A DNA stretch of 14,104 nucleotides, taken from positions 9,484 through 23,587 of the forward strand of contig JADLKH010000001.1 of NCBI GenBank assembly GCA_015657435.1, read 5' to 3'. Made by a program: the position numbers and the translations under genes. Below are positions 4,805 to 12,735 of this stretch, piece after piece (positions within the stretch are counted from its first letter, which is position 1; every line of letters starts with the position of its first letter). The notes under the pieces are model-generated. The model had not been told where the DNA came from. It did no database searches and worked only from the letters and a program-made list of their open reading frames with translations. The stretch is from Synergistales bacterium. GTDB lineage: Bacteria; Synergistota; Synergistia; Synergistales; 79-D21.

Positions 4805-4879
4805 GGGCGACTAGCTCAGCGGAAGAGCGCTTCCTTCACACGGAAGAAGTCACAGGTTCGATCCCTGTGTCGCCCACCA
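4805..4879 (+). tRNA. tRNA-Val (anticodon CAC), CCA encoded
   Basis: A full cloverleaf: acceptor stem GGGCGAC/GTCGCCC (7 bp), D arm GCTC/GAGC, anticodon stem CTTCC/GGAAG with loop TTCACAC (anticodon CAC at 4837-4839, reading GTG codons), T arm ACAGG/CCTGT around TTCGATC, discriminator A, and encoded CCA at 4877-4879. It is a single-gene transcript with its own promoter and terminator. The prophage-like island begins just beyond it, and tRNA 3' ends are frequent integration sites, but no second copy of its 3' end was found in the window. Confidence 0.97.
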
Positions 4880-5461: not shown

Positions 5462-5701
5462 CTACTTTTTTCGGCTTTCGAGCCAGGCTGCAATCTTCTT
5501 CCTGTTCCCGAAAGCCACCACGGCCGCGATCTCCTCTGCGCCGAACGGGGAGAGGCCACCGTCCTGGACATAGTTCGCGCACCACCACCACAGACAGTGA
5601 AGGTGCCCGATCATCTGGGGCACGCCGATCCCCAGGAGCCGGGCGGCCTTGCGCGTCTTCGGGTGTTCCTTCGGGGTGTCGTGGCTTTCTATCCAGGTCA
5701 T
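5462..5701 (-). CDS. N-terminal domain of a phage-type replication protein (probably truncated)
   Basis: A 79-residue protein beginning MTWIESHDTPKEHPKTRKAA, followed by 'LLGIGVPQMIGHLHCLWWWC' and ending 'NRKKIAAWLESRKK'. This is the N-terminal winged-helix pattern of phage and plasmid replication initiators of the type that open with W-I-E-x-H-D. In such proteins this part is followed by a longer C-terminal region; here a stop comes at residue 80, so it is either a truncated gene or a stand-alone DNA-binding domain. ATG 5701 follows AAAGGAGAAGGAC, better placed than the upstream in-frame start at 5737. DNA binding is inferred. Confidence 0.6.
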   Translation of the reverse strand: MTWIESHDTPKEHPKTRKAARLLGIGVPQMIGHLHCLWWWCANYVQDGGLSPFGAEEIAAVVAFGNRKKIAAWLESRKK

Positions 5702-5769
5702 GTCCTTCTCCTTTCGGGGAATCCTGCCAGGTCGCATACCCCTTGGCCTTATGCCAGATTAAAGTTGCA

Positions 5770-6407: not shown

Positions 6408-7229
6408 CTAGGCCCCCTCTTTGCCTTCAAGGTCCAATGAGACCTGTTCGCGGCTCCCGGATGCCTCCTGGGGCATCGTGGAGGGGGCTTCCTCGATCGC
6501 GGGGATTTCCTCCCGGGCGATGTCCGTCACCTGCGCCATGTCCGGGGCGACCTCGACCTTCACCGCCCCGTCGCTCTCCTCCACCATCCGCCTCATCTCC
6601 ACGCTCATCGGAAGCCACTTCCAGGCATGCCTCAGAACGGTCTTGAGCCCCATCTCCTCGGGTTCGTCCTTCCATGGCCCCTGGAGGTTTCCCGAACGGT
6701 CATACGCTCCCTTGGAGTAGGTGTCCCTCCGCCTGAGGACCTCCTGCCAGGTCATGTAGTCGAAGAAGCACCCGCCGTCCTTGAACTTCGCCACGACATA
6801 GGCGCCCTTGGGGTCACCCCTTTCTCCGTCCTCGGCGGGCCTGTGGATCAGCTTCCTGTCCAGCCCGTACTCGACTTCGACAGCGTCGTTCGCGTAGACG
6901 ATCTGACCGTAGAGATCGGAGATCTCGCCGGACCTCCTGTCGAGAGCCAGCATGCCCCTGTAGCCGATCTGCAGCTGGAGGTCGTAGCTTTTCGCCTTGT
7001 CGTTCCAGTACGGGACGAGGTCGCAGTGCCCCAGGGGAACCGGTTCCAGGCCCAGCTGGGAGGCCGTGATGACCGATGCTACCAGACTCTGCGGAGAACA
7101 GGAAAGGAGCTTCGGGTTCTTGCGGATCGCGCTGAAGGCCACCATGGCCATCCGGTCCGCGGTCATGTGCTTCGGAAGGGCCTTTGCTATGGCCTCCTGC
7201 CTCGAGATGAGGAATCCCCAGATCTGCAT
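6408..7229 (-). CDS. recT: RecT-family single-strand annealing protein (N-terminally shortened)
   Basis: The RecT core is unmistakable: 'AIAKALPKHMTADRM', 'AIRKNPKLLSCSPQSLVASV', 'ASQLGLEPVPLGHCDLVPYW', 'LQLQIGYRGMLALDRRSGEI', 'DPKGAYVVAKFKDGG', 'GPWKDEPEEMGLKTVLRHAW', 'WLPMS'. RecT anneals single-stranded DNA in phage recombination and partners a 5'-3' exonuclease. From the first plausible ATG (7229) the protein has 273 residues but lacks about 30 N-terminal residues compared with E. coli RecT, and this ATG has no ribosome-binding site. The frame stays open upstream into the exonuclease stub, where the text is no longer RecT-like. The C-terminal tail is acidic. The annealing core may be intact, but translation is doubtful. 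Confidence 0.82.
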   Translation of the reverse strand: MQIWGFLISRQEAIAKALPKHMTADRMAMVAFSAIRKNPKLLSCSPQSLVASVITASQLGLEPVPLGHCDLVPYWNDKAKSYDLQLQIGYRGMLALDRRSGEISDLYGQIVYANDAVEVEYGLDRKLIHRPAEDGERGDPKGAYVVAKFKDGGCFFDYMTWQEVLRRRDTYSKGAYDRSGNLQGPWKDEPEEMGLKTVLRHAWKWLPMSVEMRRMVEESDGAVKVEVAPDMAQVTDIAREEIPAIEEAPSTMPQEASGSREQVSLDLEGKEGA

Positions 7230-7383
7230 CTCGGGACTTGCGGCCGGCCTTTCCCCGCCGGTATGGGGGCTTCCAAGGGTTGAGCCCGCAGATGGCGGCC
7301 GAGTCGGATCCGCCGATCCCCCTCGTCCTCCTCCGAAGCCATTCTTCCCTGTCGAGATCCTTCGTCCTGACCAGAACGGCCAT
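7230..7383 (-). pseudogene. Stub of a YqaJ-type exonuclease gene joined out of frame to recT
   Basis: ATG 7383 has a strong ribosome-binding site (GGAAGGAGGAAAAGAG) and opens MAVLVRTKDLDREEWLRRRT then 'RGIGGSDSAAICGLNPWKP'. The segment E-W-L-x3-R-x-x-G-I-G-G-S-D with 'GLNPWK' is the N-terminus of the YqaJ/lambda-Exo-like viral recombinase. After about 39 to 45 residues the similarity stops and the RecT sequence follows in another frame. The remaining roughly 150 or more residues of the nuclease, including later catalytic residues, and the RecT start are missing. A single deletion removing the end of the nuclease gene and the beginning of recT explains this. Confidence 0.72.
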
Positions 7384-7559
7384 CTCTTTTCCTCCTTCCG
7401 GAAAGGCATACACGAAATCCTGTACGGACCAAACAGGATATTCTTAACTATATGTCCCGATTTCTCTCGGCATCGTTTTTTGTATTGCCGATACACTTGC
7501 AATTACAGTATTGATATTCCCTTAGCACTTTACTTTTTTTCTTTGTATGCTTTATTATT

Positions 7560-7882: not shown

Positions 7883-8188
7883 TCAGCCGGCAGAGCCCGA
7901 CGAAGATCCGGCGCCTCGTTTTGAAGGAAGAGGCTCCATCCTCACGGGAACGCATGAATCCTCCCCAAGGAAGATGTCAATCCATCGTTCGAGTTCCGCC
8001 ATTTCGTACCGGACCGTCTTGCCGATCTTCAGGAATTTGGGCCCGGGCGTCCTGCTCTTCAGGACCCCTTCCATGCGAGTCCTCCTCAGGAAGGACATGC
8101 TCATCCCGATATAGGCCGCCGCATACCGCTCATCCACGAGCACGGGTTGCACGTCGAGTTCCTTCTCTTCCAGCCGCTTGCGTCCCAT
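7883..8188 (-). CDS. Excisionase/AlpA-like helix-turn-helix protein
   Basis: A 101-residue protein. Residues about 17-74 ('VLVDERYAAAYIGMSMSFLR', 'GPKFLKIGKTVRYEMAELER', 'WIDIFLG') form the winged-helix pattern of the MerR-like excisionase/AlpA (HTH_17) family: recognition of an L-x4-A-A-x-Y-I-G segment, then K-I-G-x-x-V-R-Y and D/E-L-x-x-W. These small DNA-binding proteins control excision or phage gene expression. ATG 8188 follows AAAAAGGAGGCAGGAAGA. A longer open frame upstream (to 8392) is unsupported and crosses a divergent promoter. The C-terminus is a Ser/Gly-rich tail of no known role. No integrase is in the window. Confidence 0.7.
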   Translation of the reverse strand: MGRKRLEEKELDVQPVLVDERYAAAYIGMSMSFLRRTRMEGVLKSRTPGPKFLKIGKTVRYEMAELERWIDIFLGEDSCVPVRMEPLPSKRGAGSSSGSAG

Positions 8189-8246
8189 TCTTCCTGCCTC
8201 CTTTTTCATCCGTTCCGTTTTGTAATTTGAGCAAACCGGCGCCATT

Positions 8247-8275
8247 TTCGCTTCATTCCTCTTCCGTGTTATCCT
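8247..8275 (+). promoter_or_regulatory. Possible promoter of the 69-residue zinc-ribbon gene
   Basis: TTCGCT (8247-8252), 17-base spacer, TATCCT (8270-8275); both hexamers deviate from consensus. Confidence 0.35.
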
Positions 8276-8303
8276 TTGATTGCCGCCGCAGATTGCAGGA
8301 GTG

Positions 8304-8513
8304 ATGCGATTGCCTTTCAAGGGAATCCAGTTCGAAATCCTTTGCTCTTCGTGCAACAGGTGGTTCAAGGTAAGTCTTGAAGCAATGATCAATGGAACAA
8401 GGGCCGCCTGCCCGACCTGTCACAAGGGACCGGAGATCCGCGCACCCTTCCAGGACAAGCTGGCCCTCCAGGCTCTCAAACGGCTGGCCAGGAAAGGCAA
8501 GGAAGCCAATTAG
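8304..8513 (+). CDS. Small zinc-ribbon phage-type protein
   Basis: A 69-residue protein with two knuckles, C14-S-S-C17 and C36-P-T-C39-H, separated by 18 residues: 'FEILCSSCNRWFKVS' and 'AACPTCHKGP'. A helical, basic C-terminal third follows ('LALQALKRLARKGKEAN'). Likely a small zinc-binding nucleic-acid-associated protein. ATG 8304 has AGGAG only two bases upstream; an in-frame TTG at 8310 has ideal spacing, so the start may be either. It diverges from the excisionase-like gene and converges, with a 4-base overlap of stop regions, on the next minus-strand gene. Confidence 0.65.
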   Translation: MRLPFKGIQFEILCSSCNRWFKVSLEAMINGTRAACPTCHKGPEIRAPFQDKLALQALKRLARKGKEAN

Positions 8514-9420: not shown

Positions 9421-9606
9421 TCACCTCCCCACCGCATCCAGGAACCTCCGCCCCTGATCCACCATGCCTCTTACCTCCGTCAGGAACCTCACCGTGCCGT
9501 CCTCGTCCGCCTTCCCGTCCTGAAGGTCGTCCACGATACCCAGCACCTCCACCGGACCCGCCGATAATTCCGACAGCCTCCCCACGTTTCCGATCAGTCC
9601 CCGCAA
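9421..9606 (-). CDS. Small phage-type protein coupled to the Cro-like gene
   Basis: A 61-residue acidic protein, 'VEVLGIVDDLQDGKADEDGT' then 'VRFLTEVRGMVDQGRRFLDA', predicted helical, not recognised. The only start candidate is TTG at 9606 (or a later GTG), which overlaps the end of the HTH gene by 13 bases; no ribosome-binding site is seen, so translation would depend on coupling to the upstream gene. The TTG lies inside a perfect 12-bp hairpin arm. Amino-acid pattern and even codon use argue for a real gene, but the start is weak. Confidence 0.5.
   Translation of the reverse strand: MRGLIGNVGRLSELSAGPVEVLGIVDDLQDGKADEDGTVRFLTEVRGMVDQGRRFLDAVGR
9425..9444. repeat. 20-bp direct repeat, copy 2
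   Basis: CTCCCCACCGCATCCAGGAA; partner of the copy at 9053-9072 (one mismatch), within the 3' end of the coupled phage-type gene. Confidence 0.7.
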
Positions 9607-9824
9607 CTCGGAAGCGAAACGGGTTGCGGGGACTGGGTAGGGTTTTGCAGAATTTCGTCGATGGAGACCCCATAAAGGCTAGAAATTCTACGCAGATTGT
9701 CTAATGAGGGTTCCATGCTCCCGTTTTCCCACCTCCAAACGGTATTAACCGAAACGCAAAGTCTTTCAGCTACTTCTTTTTGTTTTAGGCCCTTTTGTTT
9801 ACGTATTTTTCGTAAGCCCTCCAA
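9594..9824 (-). CDS. Cro-like XRE-family HTH regulator
   Basis: A 76-residue protein with a canonical XRE/Cro-CI helix-turn-helix: 'LRKIRKQKGLKQKEVAERL', 'VSVNTVWRWENGSMEPSLDN' and 'LRRISSLYGVSIDEIL'. It has no second domain, so it resembles Cro or a minimal repressor. Start: TTG 9824 has GGGGGTG at a six-base spacer; an ATG at 9863 would lie inside operator O1, lacks a ribosome-binding site, and adds unlike sequence (MRIYTLCRKGVPK). It diverges from the CI-like gene across three operators, and its promoter (TTGACG/TACATA) overlaps operator O2. Its recognition helix region (S-V-N-T-V-W-R-W-E) closely resembles that of the CI-like protein (S-L-N-T-V-Y-R-W-E), so both probably bind the same sites. 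Confidence 0.85.
   Translation of the reverse strand: MEGLRKIRKQKGLKQKEVAERLCVSVNTVWRWENGSMEPSLDNLRRISSLYGVSIDEILQNPTQSPQPVSLPSCGD
9596..9634. repeat. 12-bp perfect inverted repeat at the stop/start junction
   Basis: AGTCCCCGCAAC (9596-9607) and GTTGCGGGGACT (9623-9634), 15-base loop. In the minus-strand mRNA the hairpin holds the stop of the Cro-like gene and the TTG start of the next gene, so ribosomes finishing the first gene would have to open it. No T-run follows, so it is not an intrinsic terminator. Confidence 0.75.
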
Positions 9825-9856
9825 CTTTGGCACCCCCTTTCGACACAAAGTGTATA

Positions 9857-9869
9857 TACGCATAGCGTC
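9857..9869. promoter_or_regulatory. Operator O1
   Basis: TACGCATAGCGTC, one mismatch from the palindrome TACGC-N3-GCGTA. Lies in the leader of the Cro-like gene. Confidence 0.7.
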
Positions 9870-9898
9870 GAAGTAAATAGGACCACGGAACTATTTTC

Positions 9899-9911
9899 TA
9901 CGCTGTGCGTA
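9899..9911. promoter_or_regulatory. Operator O2
   Basis: TACGCTGTGCGTA, a perfect TACGC-N3-GCGTA palindrome, centre 42 bases from O1. It touches the -10 and probable start point of the minus-strand promoter. Confidence 0.78.
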
Positions 9912-9937
9912 TGTATGGTTTCGCCGTTAGCCGTCAA
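9910..9937 (-). promoter_or_regulatory. Promoter of the Cro-like gene
   Basis: Minus strand TTGACG (9937-9932), 16-base spacer, TACATA (9915-9910). The -10 overlaps O2, so regulator bound there would shut it. Confidence 0.5.
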
Positions 9938-9965
9938 TTGAATATTTCTACGAGTAGCGTAGTAT
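9938..9965 (+). promoter_or_regulatory. Promoter of the CI-like regulator (kinase operon)
   Basis: TTGAAT (9938-9943), 16-base spacer, TAGTAT (9960-9965). Operator O3 fills most of the spacer and touches the -10, predicting repression by occupation of O3. The -35 hexamers of the two divergent promoters are adjacent. Confidence 0.55.
9949..9961. promoter_or_regulatory. Operator O3
   Basis: TACGAGTAGCGTA, one mismatch from TACGC-N3-GCGTA; its flanks extend it to CTACG-N5-CGTAG. Centre 50 bases from O2. Confidence 0.75.
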
Positions 9966-9992
9966 TAGTTGTTGAAAGGTTAGGTGTTGCCC

Positions 9993-10676
9993 ATGCTTGG
10001 AAGTAGATTGAAAGAGAAGAGAAAACAGGCGGGGTATACGCTGGAGGATTTTTCAAAACAGATAGGAGTTTCATTAAACACGGTGTATCGCTGGGAGTCC
10101 GGTAAACACGAGCCCGACGATGACACTAAACGTCGAATTTGCGCTCTCTTAAGTATTTCTCTCGGCTACCTTATGGGAGATACGCAAGAAACCAGCGTAG
10201 AAATTGCACCTAGAGTCACCCCTATTCCGAATCAAAAACTCATTCCTATCCTCCACCCCTCCTACCTTGCCTGCGCAGGCGAAGGGCTCAACCTCCACGG
10301 CGTCACTATGGAGGCCTCGGAACATATCCCGCTTTCCGAAAAGGATTTGGGGACTATCGGCGAAGAGCCAATCTTCGGGGTGCGCGTGGAAGGGACTTCA
10401 ATGGAACCTGCGGATATAAAGGACGGCTCCGTGGCGATCATCAATCCGAACCAGGAAATCAGATACGGAGATCCGTGCCTAGTTTGCTTCGGAATCGACG
10501 AAGCGGCGATCAAGTTTTTGTACCCGCAACCTGGAGGCGGGCTACGGATTGAGTCAGCCGACCCTTCGTACAAGAAGCACCAGTTCACAAAAGAAGAGGT
10601 AGAAGGTGGACTGGTTAGGGTTGTAGGACCAGTAGTAGCTACGGTGTGGGTCGGTAAACCGAAACGGGGCATTTGA
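9993..10676 (+). CDS. CI/LexA-like transcriptional regulator: XRE HTH plus S24 self-cleaving domain
   Basis: A 227-residue protein. Residues about 3-60 are an XRE helix-turn-helix ('LKEKRKQAGYTLEDFSKQIG', 'VSLNTVYRWESGKHEPDDD'). Residues about 90-220 are an S24 (LexA/UmuD) peptidase domain with a candidate cleavage site A95-G96 in 'YLACAGEG', nucleophile S136 in 'RVEGTSMEPA' and the lysine K174 in 'EAAIKFLYP'; spacings (41 and 38) are close to those of LexA. Such repressors cleave themselves when RecA filaments form. ATG 9993 follows a weak AGGT-type site. It faces the Cro-like gene across three operators, so it likely sets a lysogeny-type switch, and it is the first gene of a probable operon with the kinase 33 bases on. 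Confidence 0.9.
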   Translation: MLGSRLKEKRKQAGYTLEDFSKQIGVSLNTVYRWESGKHEPDDDTKRRICALLSISLGYLMGDTQETSVEIAPRVTPIPNQKLIPILHPSYLACAGEGLNLHGVTMEASEHIPLSEKDLGTIGEEPIFGVRVEGTSMEPADIKDGSVAIINPNQEIRYGDPCLVCFGIDEAAIKFLYPQPGGGLRIESADPSYKKHQFTKEEVEGGLVRVVGPVVATVWVGKPKRGI

Positions 10677-10693
10677 ATTATTACACAATCCCT

Positions 10694-10711
10694 AAAGGAG
10701 GCGGCTCCTTT
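10694..10711 (+). promoter_or_regulatory. Hairpin covering the ribosome-binding site and start codon of the kinase
   Basis: AAAGGAG (10694-10700), loop GCGG, CTCCTTT (10705-10711). The 5' arm is the Shine-Dalgarno sequence and the 3' arm runs into the TTG start (10710-10712), so the folded mRNA hides both. No T-run follows, which argues against a terminator. Confidence 0.75.
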
Positions 10712-12056
10712 GTCTTATATCGTCATAAAAGAAATTGGCCAGGGAGGGTTTGGTCGCGTAGAAGAGGTAGTAAATGAAGATGGAGACCACCTAGCCTTAA
10801 AAACTTTTTTTTCAATAGCCGAGGCCAAGTGCCCTCCAGAGCTTTACGAAAACGCAAAGCTCAGATTTCTAAAAGAAGCCAAGATCCAACATTCTTTATC
10901 ACATCCAAATATAGTTCCTGTTCTTGAGCATTTCCTCGATTGCGACCCCCCTTCATATGTTATGCCCCTTGCAATATCCAGTCTTTCCCAAGATAAATTC
11001 GATAATTACATAACCAAAGAAAACATTTTACCAGTCATTTATGATGTCCTATCCGGTTTAGAGTATATGCACAGCAAAGGAATTTATCATAGAGATTTAA
11101 AGCTAAACAACATCCTCCGTTTTTTAGATGATAAAGAAATTCCTTATTATGCTTTAAGTGATTTTGGTTTTATCCATGTTGCCGACTCTTCAACTACAAT
11201 TCTTACTAGTGCAGGAATTGGATTTGGGCCAGACTATTACAAAGCTCCTGAAGTAGTAGATTGCCTGTCACAATGCAGCGTTTACTCGGATATTTATTCA
11301 GTAGGGTGCATTTTACATGATTTTGTTGGGATTAATAAGCGACTTCTTTGCAACGAAATAGATGAACCCGAAAACCCTTATGGGGGTATTTTATTGAAAT
11401 GCACAAAGAAGGTACCGAAAGAAAGGTATTCTTCGGTCGAAGCCTTAAGAAAAGCACTTTACCAATTTGAAGATAAGCCTTCTCTTTCGATTCCAGAAGA
11501 TAAAAACACCTCATTCTTAAAGCTTTTTAACTCGATTAAGAAAAAGGTGCATAATTTAGGGTTGTGTTTAGCTTTACGTGATTTTTTACTAGCAGAAACA
11601 GAGGATCTTCCTAAAATTCGTATTTTCGAAATACTTGACATTGATTCTTTTGAAGCTTTTTATAAATTAGATAAAAGTCTTGCAGACAATATCTCGTCTA
11701 TTTTTATAAAATGGGCTTCTTCTACGTCCCTTGACTTCTCTTTTTGTGATGTTGTAGCCAGAAGAATACTAACTATTTATAATATTTCCGATAATTGCGA
11801 AGTAAAAGCACACTGTTTGATCGCTTTTTTGCTATTGGGTACTAGTCATAATCGATGGTATGTAGAAAAACTATTCTACAAAATGTGTTCTTACCCTTTG
11901 GAAAATGAAGTAGAATCTTTATTAATTCAGAAAATGGAACATGATCCCTATACCACCTGCAAAGCAATCAAAAACTTAGAAGAATCTATAAATGTTGATA
12001 GAAAATGCTTAAATGCAAAGATAGCAAAAACCTTGGAGGTTATTTGTAATGATTGA
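10710..12056 (+). CDS. Eukaryotic-like Ser/Thr protein kinase with unknown C-terminal domain
   Basis: A 448-residue cytoplasmic protein without membrane helix. Kinase domain about residues 4-252: glycine loop G10-Q-G-G-F-G15-R-V, ATP lysine K31 (LALKTFF), helix-C Glu56, catalytic H127-R-D129-L-K131-L-N-N134, D151-F-G153, A179-P-E181 and the buried D194 (YSDIYSVG), so all catalytic residues are present. Residues about 255-448 are helical, AT-rich in coding and unrecognised. Start TTG 10710 with AAAGGAGG is the only one that keeps the N-terminal strand of the kinase. Eight bases overlap the PP2C gene. The gene is much more AT-rich than the flanks, suggesting separate acquisition. Position behind a CI-like gene recalls phage 933W stk. 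Confidence 0.92.
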   Translation: MSYIVIKEIGQGGFGRVEEVVNEDGDHLALKTFFSIAEAKCPPELYENAKLRFLKEAKIQHSLSHPNIVPVLEHFLDCDPPSYVMPLAISSLSQDKFDNYITKENILPVIYDVLSGLEYMHSKGIYHRDLKLNNILRFLDDKEIPYYALSDFGFIHVADSSTTILTSAGIGFGPDYYKAPEVVDCLSQCSVYSDIYSVGCILHDFVGINKRLLCNEIDEPENPYGGILLKCTKKVPKERYSSVEALRKALYQFEDKPSLSIPEDKNTSFLKLFNSIKKKVHNLGLCLALRDFLLAETEDLPKIRIFEILDIDSFEAFYKLDKSLADNISSIFIKWASSTSLDFSFCDVVARRILTIYNISDNCEVKAHCLIAFLLLGTSHNRWYVEKLFYKMCSYPLENEVESLLIQKMEHDPYTTCKAIKNLEESINVDRKCLNAKIAKTLEVICND

Positions 12057-12735
12057 TATCAGGGCTTTATCTGATAAAGGGCCTATTAACGACAATCAAG
12101 ATTTTTATTTGTTCAAGAACACAAAGTATAACGAGTCAATATTTTGCGTAACTGATGGGGTCGGTGGAAGACCTTGCGGTAAGATAGCTTCAAAACATGC
12201 TGCCGAGTCTTTTATTGATTATTTCTCATCGTTTTATTCCAACAATATATGGTATGGTGTTAATTATATTAACAACCTTTTACTTCATTATGCAAACAAC
12301 AACCCCACTTGCATAAACATGGCAACAACCTTGACCGGTGGATGGATTATAAACGGAGTTCTAACTGGCGTACATATTGGCGATAGCAGAGCGTTCTTAT
12401 TAAGAAGTGGATATATGAAACAATTAACAAAGGATCACAATGAATATGAAGAACATAAGGCGCGAATGATGATGTATGAAGGGCGAAAAAATGTTTTGAC
12501 AAATGCTCTAGGAATGAATTCTATAAAATTCGATTCTTTTAAAGAGTTTTTAAGATATAGAGATCGCATATTATTTATGACTGATGGTGCTTATAATTCT
12601 TTAAATGAAAATGAAATTGTTTACCTTAATAAGGTATATAGTAATAACGATTTATTTGTTAAGGCATTATTTAACCGAATAGCTTTAGCTCGTCCGACTG
12701 ATAATTATACTGTTCTAAGCGTCGACTATATCTGA
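12049..12735 (+). CDS. PP2C-family protein phosphatase
   Basis: A 228-residue soluble phosphatase of the metal-dependent PP2C/SpoIIE class. Motifs in order: 'SDKGPINDNQDF' (D18), 'FCVTDGVGGRPCGKIAS' (metal-binding D36-G37), 'LTGVHIGDSRAFLLRSG', 'QLTKDHNEYEEHKARM', 'ILFMTDGAYNSL' (D179) and 'RPTDNYTVLSVDYI' (D218-N). The core set of acidic metal ligands is present, so activity is likely. It should remove phosphates put on by the adjacent kinase or its targets, or keep the kinase silent. ATG 12049 lies inside the kinase gene (ATGATTGA overlap) with TTGGAGG upstream. It has the same AT-rich composition as the kinase gene. No terminator is evident after it. Confidence 0.9.
   Translation: MIDIRALSDKGPINDNQDFYLFKNTKYNESIFCVTDGVGGRPCGKIASKHAAESFIDYFSSFYSNNIWYGVNYINNLLLHYANNNPTCINMATTLTGGWIINGVLTGVHIGDSRAFLLRSGYMKQLTKDHNEYEEHKARMMMYEGRKNVLTNALGMNSIKFDSFKEFLRYRDRILFMTDGAYNSLNENEIVYLNKVYSNNDLFVKALFNRIALARPTDNYTVLSVDYI

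Follow-up and report, generated by a model that had tools for sequence, protein, structure and literature searches.

A kinase–PP2C gene pair behind the cI gene of a prophage-derived element in a Synergistales bacterium: a candidate two-gene defence cassette

Introduction

Why should a Ser/Thr protein kinase gene, joined to a gene for a PP2C-type phosphatase, stand directly behind the repressor gene of a prophage-derived element? The question is raised by a 14.1-kb stretch of DNA from a Synergistales bacterium (G000:C4:9484-23587, within a 2.68-Mb assembly), referred to here as the window, in which a CI-type repressor gene is followed by such a pair. Accessory exclusion genes of a prophage immunity region or cI operon are exemplified by lambda rexAB and the 933W-type stk kinase gene, and a first-pass annotation made from the letters of the window had likewise proposed an immunity-type operon whose kinase excludes phages and whose phosphatase is the brake. 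The reading favoured here, at a probability of about 60%, is that an integrative element of prophage origin holds the pair in its cI operon as cargo, a cassette of two genes, kinase and phosphatase, that serves defence. It draws on the gene content of the locus, the pairing of the two genes in the family members that could be read, the defence cargo found at the same slot in related elements and the mobile context of the family members.

A kinase–phosphatase pair in a cI operon

The layout described by the first-pass annotation was borne out by the open reading frames (ORFs) and by Pfam: regulator, kinase and PP2C genes are complete, the kinase gene begins 33 bases past the CI stop codon in the same direction, which is the position of exclusion genes in cI operons, and the PP2C gene overlaps the kinase gene by 8 bases (Table 1). 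So close or overlapping a junction points to joint translation of brake and effector. The kinase protein consists of a kinase domain (residues ~1-255) and an all-helical C-terminal domain (~265-445), and the catalytic residues D129 of the kinase and D36 of the PP2C are invariant in family alignments of 40 and 27 rows, respectively. The cleavage and catalytic residues of CI had also been called intact; as located by LexA/CI motifs, the Ser and Lys of the S24 domain and the Cys-Ala-Gly region of cleavage do not differ among the three aligned CI sequences, namely those of the window, of another element that this genome contains (L010) and of a viral contig (L126).

The first-pass annotation had further placed three operators between CI and a divergent Cro-like gene, and a forward-strand scan with the palindromic pattern TACGCNNNGCGTA, requiring at least 9 of its 10 specified bases, returned exactly those three sites in the window and no others. 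Their arrangement is kept in L010 and L126 (88% mean column identity), with site 3 identical in all three elements and site 1 weaker in both related ones (7/10 in L010). Among 185 genomes of the phylum, the site 3 15-mer has two exact occurrences, each preceding one of this genome's two cI genes, and an 18-mer around the site occurs once in the viral collection. The location of site 3 at the expected CI promoter suggests negative autoregulation by CI. A CAATTG core between sites 2 and 3 resembles, by eye, the common end of two divergent -35 boxes; the promoter scan listed no promoter at this core. The real start of the Cro-like gene may lie further inside, which would place operator 1 upstream of that gene.

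Table 1. Features of the window, with positions counted from its first base
Feature	Position	Strand	Basis or remark
CI-type repressor, helix-turn-helix (HTH) + S24 self-cleavage domain	9984..10676	+	Pfam HTH_3 and Peptidase_S24 above cut-off
Ser/Thr protein kinase, 448 residues, TTG start	10710..12056	+	Pfam Pkinase 109.7 bits, family alignment, models
PP2C-type Ser/Thr phosphatase	12049..12735	+	Pfam PP2C_2 45 bits, family alignment
Cro-like HTH regulator, divergent from CI	9594..9863	-	Pfam HTH_3 68.9 bits; conserved in L010
Operator 1, TACGCATAGCGTC, 9/10	9857..9869		Pattern scan, alignment
Operator 2, TACGCTGTGCGTA, 10/10	9899..9911		Pattern scan, alignment
Operator 3, TACGAGTAGCGTA, 9/10, at expected CI promoter	9949..9961		Pattern scan; identical in L010, L126
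Hairpin, 8 pairs, spanning kinase ribosome-binding site and TTG start	10693..10712	+	Possible attenuator
tRNA-Val (CAC)	4805..4879	+	ARAGORN, Rfam
Replication-initiation-like short ORF, 91 aa, probably truncated	5462..5737	-	PHROG match, first 64 of 288 profile positions
RecT-type single-strand annealing protein, early region	6408..7502	-	Pfam RecT 144.7 bits, PHROG 148
Excisionase-like HTH protein	7883..8392	-	PHROG 66, E 1.9e-7; Pfam HTH_17 below cut-off

Recognised or candidate defence genes at the same slot in related elements

Four elements with a closely related CI could be read: that of the window, L010, L126 and that of a genus neighbour (G001; L117), whose contig begins inside cI. Identity to the window CI is 78% for L010 and L126, and 97% over the final 118 residues for G001; a search with the CI alignment gave 13 viral loci, one of them L126 and the remaining 12 at 27-44% over short stretches. 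Each of the four elements carries different cargo behind cI, the kinase–PP2C pair being that of the window, and the DNA similarity between the two copies in this genome stops at the cI stop codon. In L010 (G000:C4:255001-275000, positions 10281-19644), the cargo comprises a DUF3644 gene (PADLOC PDC-S19, 1.5e-156) and a PDC-S60 match (2.1e-16), together with an EcoRII-type nuclease, a DNA methylase and Vsr, with unassigned ORFs interspersed. The viral contig (L126, 8001-16687) has bSEFIR (3.4e-89), a YaaC-like gene and a Vsr-like fragment (by eye), continuing with a SAVED effector and a CBASS cyclase up to an E1-E2 gene that the edge of the locus truncates. In the genus neighbour, a DUF1828 gene (PDC-M24B, 3.8e-20) is accompanied by a short ORF without assignment.

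Recognised or candidate defence genes stand behind cI in all three of the other close-CI elements. PADLOC models are sometimes unspecific; the SEFIR, SAVED, SMODS, ThiF, EcoRII and Vsr assignments are backed by Pfam. The argument for defence that this slot provides does not depend on the kinase itself. As a separate observation, L126 represents a viral genome with apparently two immune systems in its repressor operon slot.

A mobile family of paired kinases and phosphatases

A protein search with the window kinase returned 412 proteins at E 0.001, and 119 relatives among the best 120 of these share 35-41% identity over 93-100% of its length. Their sources include Morganella, Vibrio cholerae, Pantoea, Klebsiella, E. 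coli, Rhizobium, Sinorhizobium, a Cyclobacteriaceae assembly and Mucilaginibacter. Family kinases have about 440 residues with a helical C-terminal domain marked by an HNRWYVE motif, in which W is almost invariant and the other six residues fully so across 40 aligned kinases, and the window kinase fits the family by its full-length similarity, this motif and the adjoining PP2C. The C-terminal domain is all-helical in both structure models (mean pLDDT 86.4 and 83.5); searches with this domain found no credible solved relative and no confident fold, the best Foldseek match being a designed helical repeat at E 0.041. A search with the C-terminal region alone added one further protein, and whole-model searches returned kinase domains among the top 50 of each list.

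The pairing itself is a family trait. In all six other members with readable DNA, i.e., three viral contigs (L027, L028 and L029) and three Acinetobacter plasmids (L110, L111 and L112), a PP2C gene lies immediately 3' of the kinase gene on the same strand, the spacing, with the genes taken as annotated or called, running from 10 overlapping bases to 57 intervening ones. When 119 kinase and 119 PP2C rows were compared by the size of their longest source contig, 15 values were shared versus 1.1 from jittered sizes, and for sizes above 10 kb the figures were 8 versus 0.03 expected. A phage portal gene lies near the pair in L027 and a GPD gene in L028. The L029 pair is identical to one in E. coli KV7, placed there between the replication and the portal genes of a P2-family prophage; a DNA search with this pair, which divergent copies would escape, matched KV7 alone among 5426 complete E. 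coli genomes. The same prophage (L127, 20841-22030) carries a DUF262 gene and a HEPN-domain gene as additional cargo, and on the small Acinetobacter plasmids the kinase–PP2C pair is accompanied by a BrnT/BrnA toxin–antitoxin pair. Scans of viral contigs with the window kinase and with P0002, and of genome contigs with the window kinase, yielded no relatives. An alignment-based scan of genome contigs, in which generic patterns were selected, gave at least 591 stretches, 513 of the 591 listed encoding kinase-domain relatives; in the 80 retained, matches end by query residue 295 at 24-36% identity, and these stretches were not used for context.

Both genes are AT-rich, as the first-pass annotation had pointed out, with GC contents of 35.0% (kinase) and 33.2% (PP2C) versus 51.4% for CI and 61.2% for RecT. 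Since the kinase family occurs in only 1 of 185 genomes of its own phylum (E 1e-25) and the pair is far AT-richer than the phage genes around it, a recent horizontal gain is indicated.

Comparison with known kinase systems

Housekeeping Stp1-PknB pairs have the order PP2C before kinase, and staphylococcal Stk2 and PD-T4-6 are single genes without PP2C in which a kinase domain is tied to abortive infection. Neither kind accommodates the window pair. The PASTA kinase model gave 73.8 versus 450 bits and the Stp1 model 122.8 versus 230, and no PASTA domain is present. PD-T4-6 gave 100.2 bits for the window kinase, yet three generic kinase fragments scored 197.8-400.9, so that the PADLOC kinase models respond to the generic kinase domain and are uninformative with respect to PD-T4-6, Stk2 or mad6 identity; the NCBIfam model for MAD6 gave 68.1 bits versus a cut-off of 460. 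The 933W-type stk is similar as an immunity-region Ser/Thr kinase (30.4% identity over 152 residues), but those Stx-phage records contain no PP2C match, and the kinase is far remoter than the family members. In a phage collection, 32 records match the kinase, 18 the PP2C and 15 both; in 14 of the 15 the coordinates put PP2C ahead of the kinase, Escherichia phage Flotzy being kinase-first. Flotzy and Cronobacter phage phiES15 resemble the window in having a kinase gene followed, with a 4-base overlap, by a second gene, which is annotated as PP2C in phiES15 and matches the window PP2C at 2e-12 in Flotzy. However, their kinases of 255 (Flotzy) and 259 (phiES15) residues lack the C-terminal domain (the match stops at residue 246), and the pairs lie near antitermination, lysis and terminase genes rather than behind cI.

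The closest functional precedent is KKP, a prophage kinase–kinase–phosphatase system (PfkA-PfkB-PfpC) combining toxin–antitoxin action, phage defence and lysogeny control (Guo et al. 2024, Nat Commun; PMC11341870). In KKP, both kinases are jointly toxic and are neutralised by the PP2C, growth arrest restricts phage, T4 Gp59 binds the PP2C with modest inhibition, and more than 1200 clusters were found, over 90% of them in temperate phages; kinase and PP2C act on many host proteins, with MvaU as a phosphorylated silencing protein or repressor, and Stk2 is briefly compared in the discussion (PMC11341870). RepG4 of Pf4 has been reported to cause degradation of the KKP phosphatase (PMC13048266), and CapK-CapS is a DNA-damage-responsive pair reported upstream of immune operons (PMC13373217). 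Excerpts of two further sources are less close: DefensePredictor contains a HipA-type kinase system and metallophosphatases, with the term PP2C absent from its excerpted text, and a review of marine toxin–antitoxin systems only cites KKP in the part consulted. KKP was the sole kinase–PP2C defence system among the open-licence literature matches listed, and a search of that literature, with subscription papers outside its range, found no description of a two-gene HNRWYVE family.

The likeness lies in a Ser/Thr kinase opposed by an adjoining PP2C, mostly in temperate phages or on mobile DNA. KKP, however, was defined by the order PP2C-kinase-kinase and carries a CSD on PfkA and an FHA domain on PfkB, whereas the window has one kinase with another C-terminal domain and the kinase first. 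Membership in KKP was rejected: CI precedes the kinase, no kinase-type ORF of annotated size lies 3' of PP2C in the window, and in the 448-residue protein Pfam gives kinase families only (E 0.01), with no CSD or FHA. By analogy, the pair most likely works like a one-kinase KKP, yet it is not a KKP member; both enzymes are present with their catalytic residues intact, and a toxin–antitoxin action as in KKP is conceivable. The first-pass annotation had not recognised the pairing as a described system, which fails in kind given the publication of KKP (PMC11341870) and the annotated pair of phiES15. What appears new is the single-kinase, kinase-first pair with the HNRWYVE helical domain, kinase–PP2C prophage defence being already known from KKP.

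The KKP precedent also suggests two other roles. Because KKP is described as performing lysogeny control besides defence, the window pair, lying directly behind the repressor gene, might tune lysogeny or relations between prophages, the kinase phosphorylating a silencing protein or repressor (cf. KKP and MvaU) and the PP2C reversing this; the second element of this genome has near-identical operators, so that cross-talk would be possible. Such a role is nevertheless unlikely, as the other three slots carry defence genes rather than regulators, the window contains no structural genes and hence leaves little lysis to control, and family members on small plasmids lack a resident prophage that they could control. 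Alternatively, the pair could serve general host fitness or conversion, with the kinase altering growth, persistence or stress and playing no anti-phage part. The many host proteins that KKP kinase/PP2C pairs are described as touching would agree with this, and the BrnT/BrnA companion on the plasmids suits plasmid maintenance equally well; the slot comparison and the placement of a family member at the cargo site of a P2-type phage make it distinctly unlikely.

A proposed mode of action

In the favoured reading, a defence cassette in the cI operon, CI would silence the element and probably limit its own operon, such that kinase and PP2C, co-expressed from the repressor promoter, stay low and balanced and the PP2C holds the kinase and its targets dephosphorylated. 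Upon infection, a phage product or a lost balance would block or outrun the PP2C, and the freed kinase, perhaps guided by its helical C-terminal domain, would phosphorylate host or phage proteins, thereby halting growth or phage production in an abortive infection. Co-expression, toxicity of the kinase, its antagonism by PP2C and the trigger are inferences, and the S24 regulator offers a possible DNA-damage input through which expression of the pair, and with it phage exclusion, might change.

A broader proposal, tentative and held at somewhat less than even odds, is that HNRWYVE-domain kinases of about 440 residues and their PP2C partners form a distinct, unnamed two-gene defence system on prophages and plasmids across phyla, and that its capture here after a self-cleaving repressor would subject prophage induction and kinase immunity alike to one DNA-damage switch, with the cI operon as an exchangeable socket for immune systems. 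If the pair protects, the KKP kinase–phosphatase principle would also work with a single kinase whose sensing or docking domain differs, and the operon of a phage repressor could be such an exchangeable socket.

Evidence weighing against a functional defence cassette

Several observations weigh against the favoured reading. KKP toxicity requires two kinases and the window has one. No relative of the window CI was found near any of the six other family members (phmmer, E 1e-5, 4-22 kb of DNA each), and seven remoter CI-like loci of the phylum (L118-L123 and L125; 36-38% identity) have no such kinase or PP2C in 2.8-3.7 kb each. S24 linkage is therefore not a feature of the family, and DNA-damage control would be a local arrangement. 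The linkage that the first-pass annotation had proposed to score divides, with PP2C adjacency and location on viral contigs or plasmids in 6/6 homologues and a relative of the window CI nearby in 0/6; its immunity-type operon stands as mobile cI-operon cargo in a slot with recognised or candidate defence genes in 3/3 comparisons, but not as a family-wide association with S24 regulators.

The element itself is prophage-derived and defective, the window PP2C is shortened at residues 133-143, and among the rows of its alignment the window kinase diverges most, with 24 of 122 conserved columns altered versus at most 8 in the others. A hairpin between cI and the kinase gene may limit kinase expression; it is no stronger than chance, its folding being unexceptional (z -1.20; 28/200 shuffles equally or more stable), and terminator-like sites are not commoner than in shuffles (4 observed versus 4.6 expected). 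Together with the truncated replication ORF and the absence of structural genes from the window, the altered kinase columns and this hairpin would suit a decayed remnant, that is, a pair no longer expressed or active in a degraded element. This is very unlikely, since both frames are open, the overlap resembles that of relatives, and kinase and PP2C retain every column that is invariant in the family alignments.

The prophage-derived element and its integration site

The left attachment repeat consists of the final 45 bases of tRNA-Val (4835-4879), and its right copy lies at C4:33369-33413 (98% identity), with a phage-type tyrosine integrase gene (C4:31939-33216; Pfam Phage_integrase 102.6 bits) just inside it. 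The right end of the element is therefore outside the window, and the repeat-bounded stretch spans about 19 kb. No structural phage genes were found in the window. The stretch also contains, by eye, two PAS/HD-GYP-type sensor genes and an SLH-type porin gene (L009 2956-9736, equal to C4:22956-29736), whose presence amid phage early genes implies that the element is composite or accreted.

The interval between tRNA-Val and purA is an integration hotspot across G004, G002, G001 and the window genome. In G004, of the same genus, an intact tRNA-Val adjoins the right flank and represents an empty site, the contig starting just before the tRNA, while G002 has a different insert of ~8.3 kb at tRNA-Val. 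A repeat copy in G001 lies beside a related integrase region (79% DNA identity), whose integrase is adjoined by a related PAS/HD-GYP gene. In this related region of G001 (L136, G001:C176, 1991-12569), TRAP-transporter- and metabolic-looking genes (by eye) separate the cI cargo from the PAS/HD-GYP gene.

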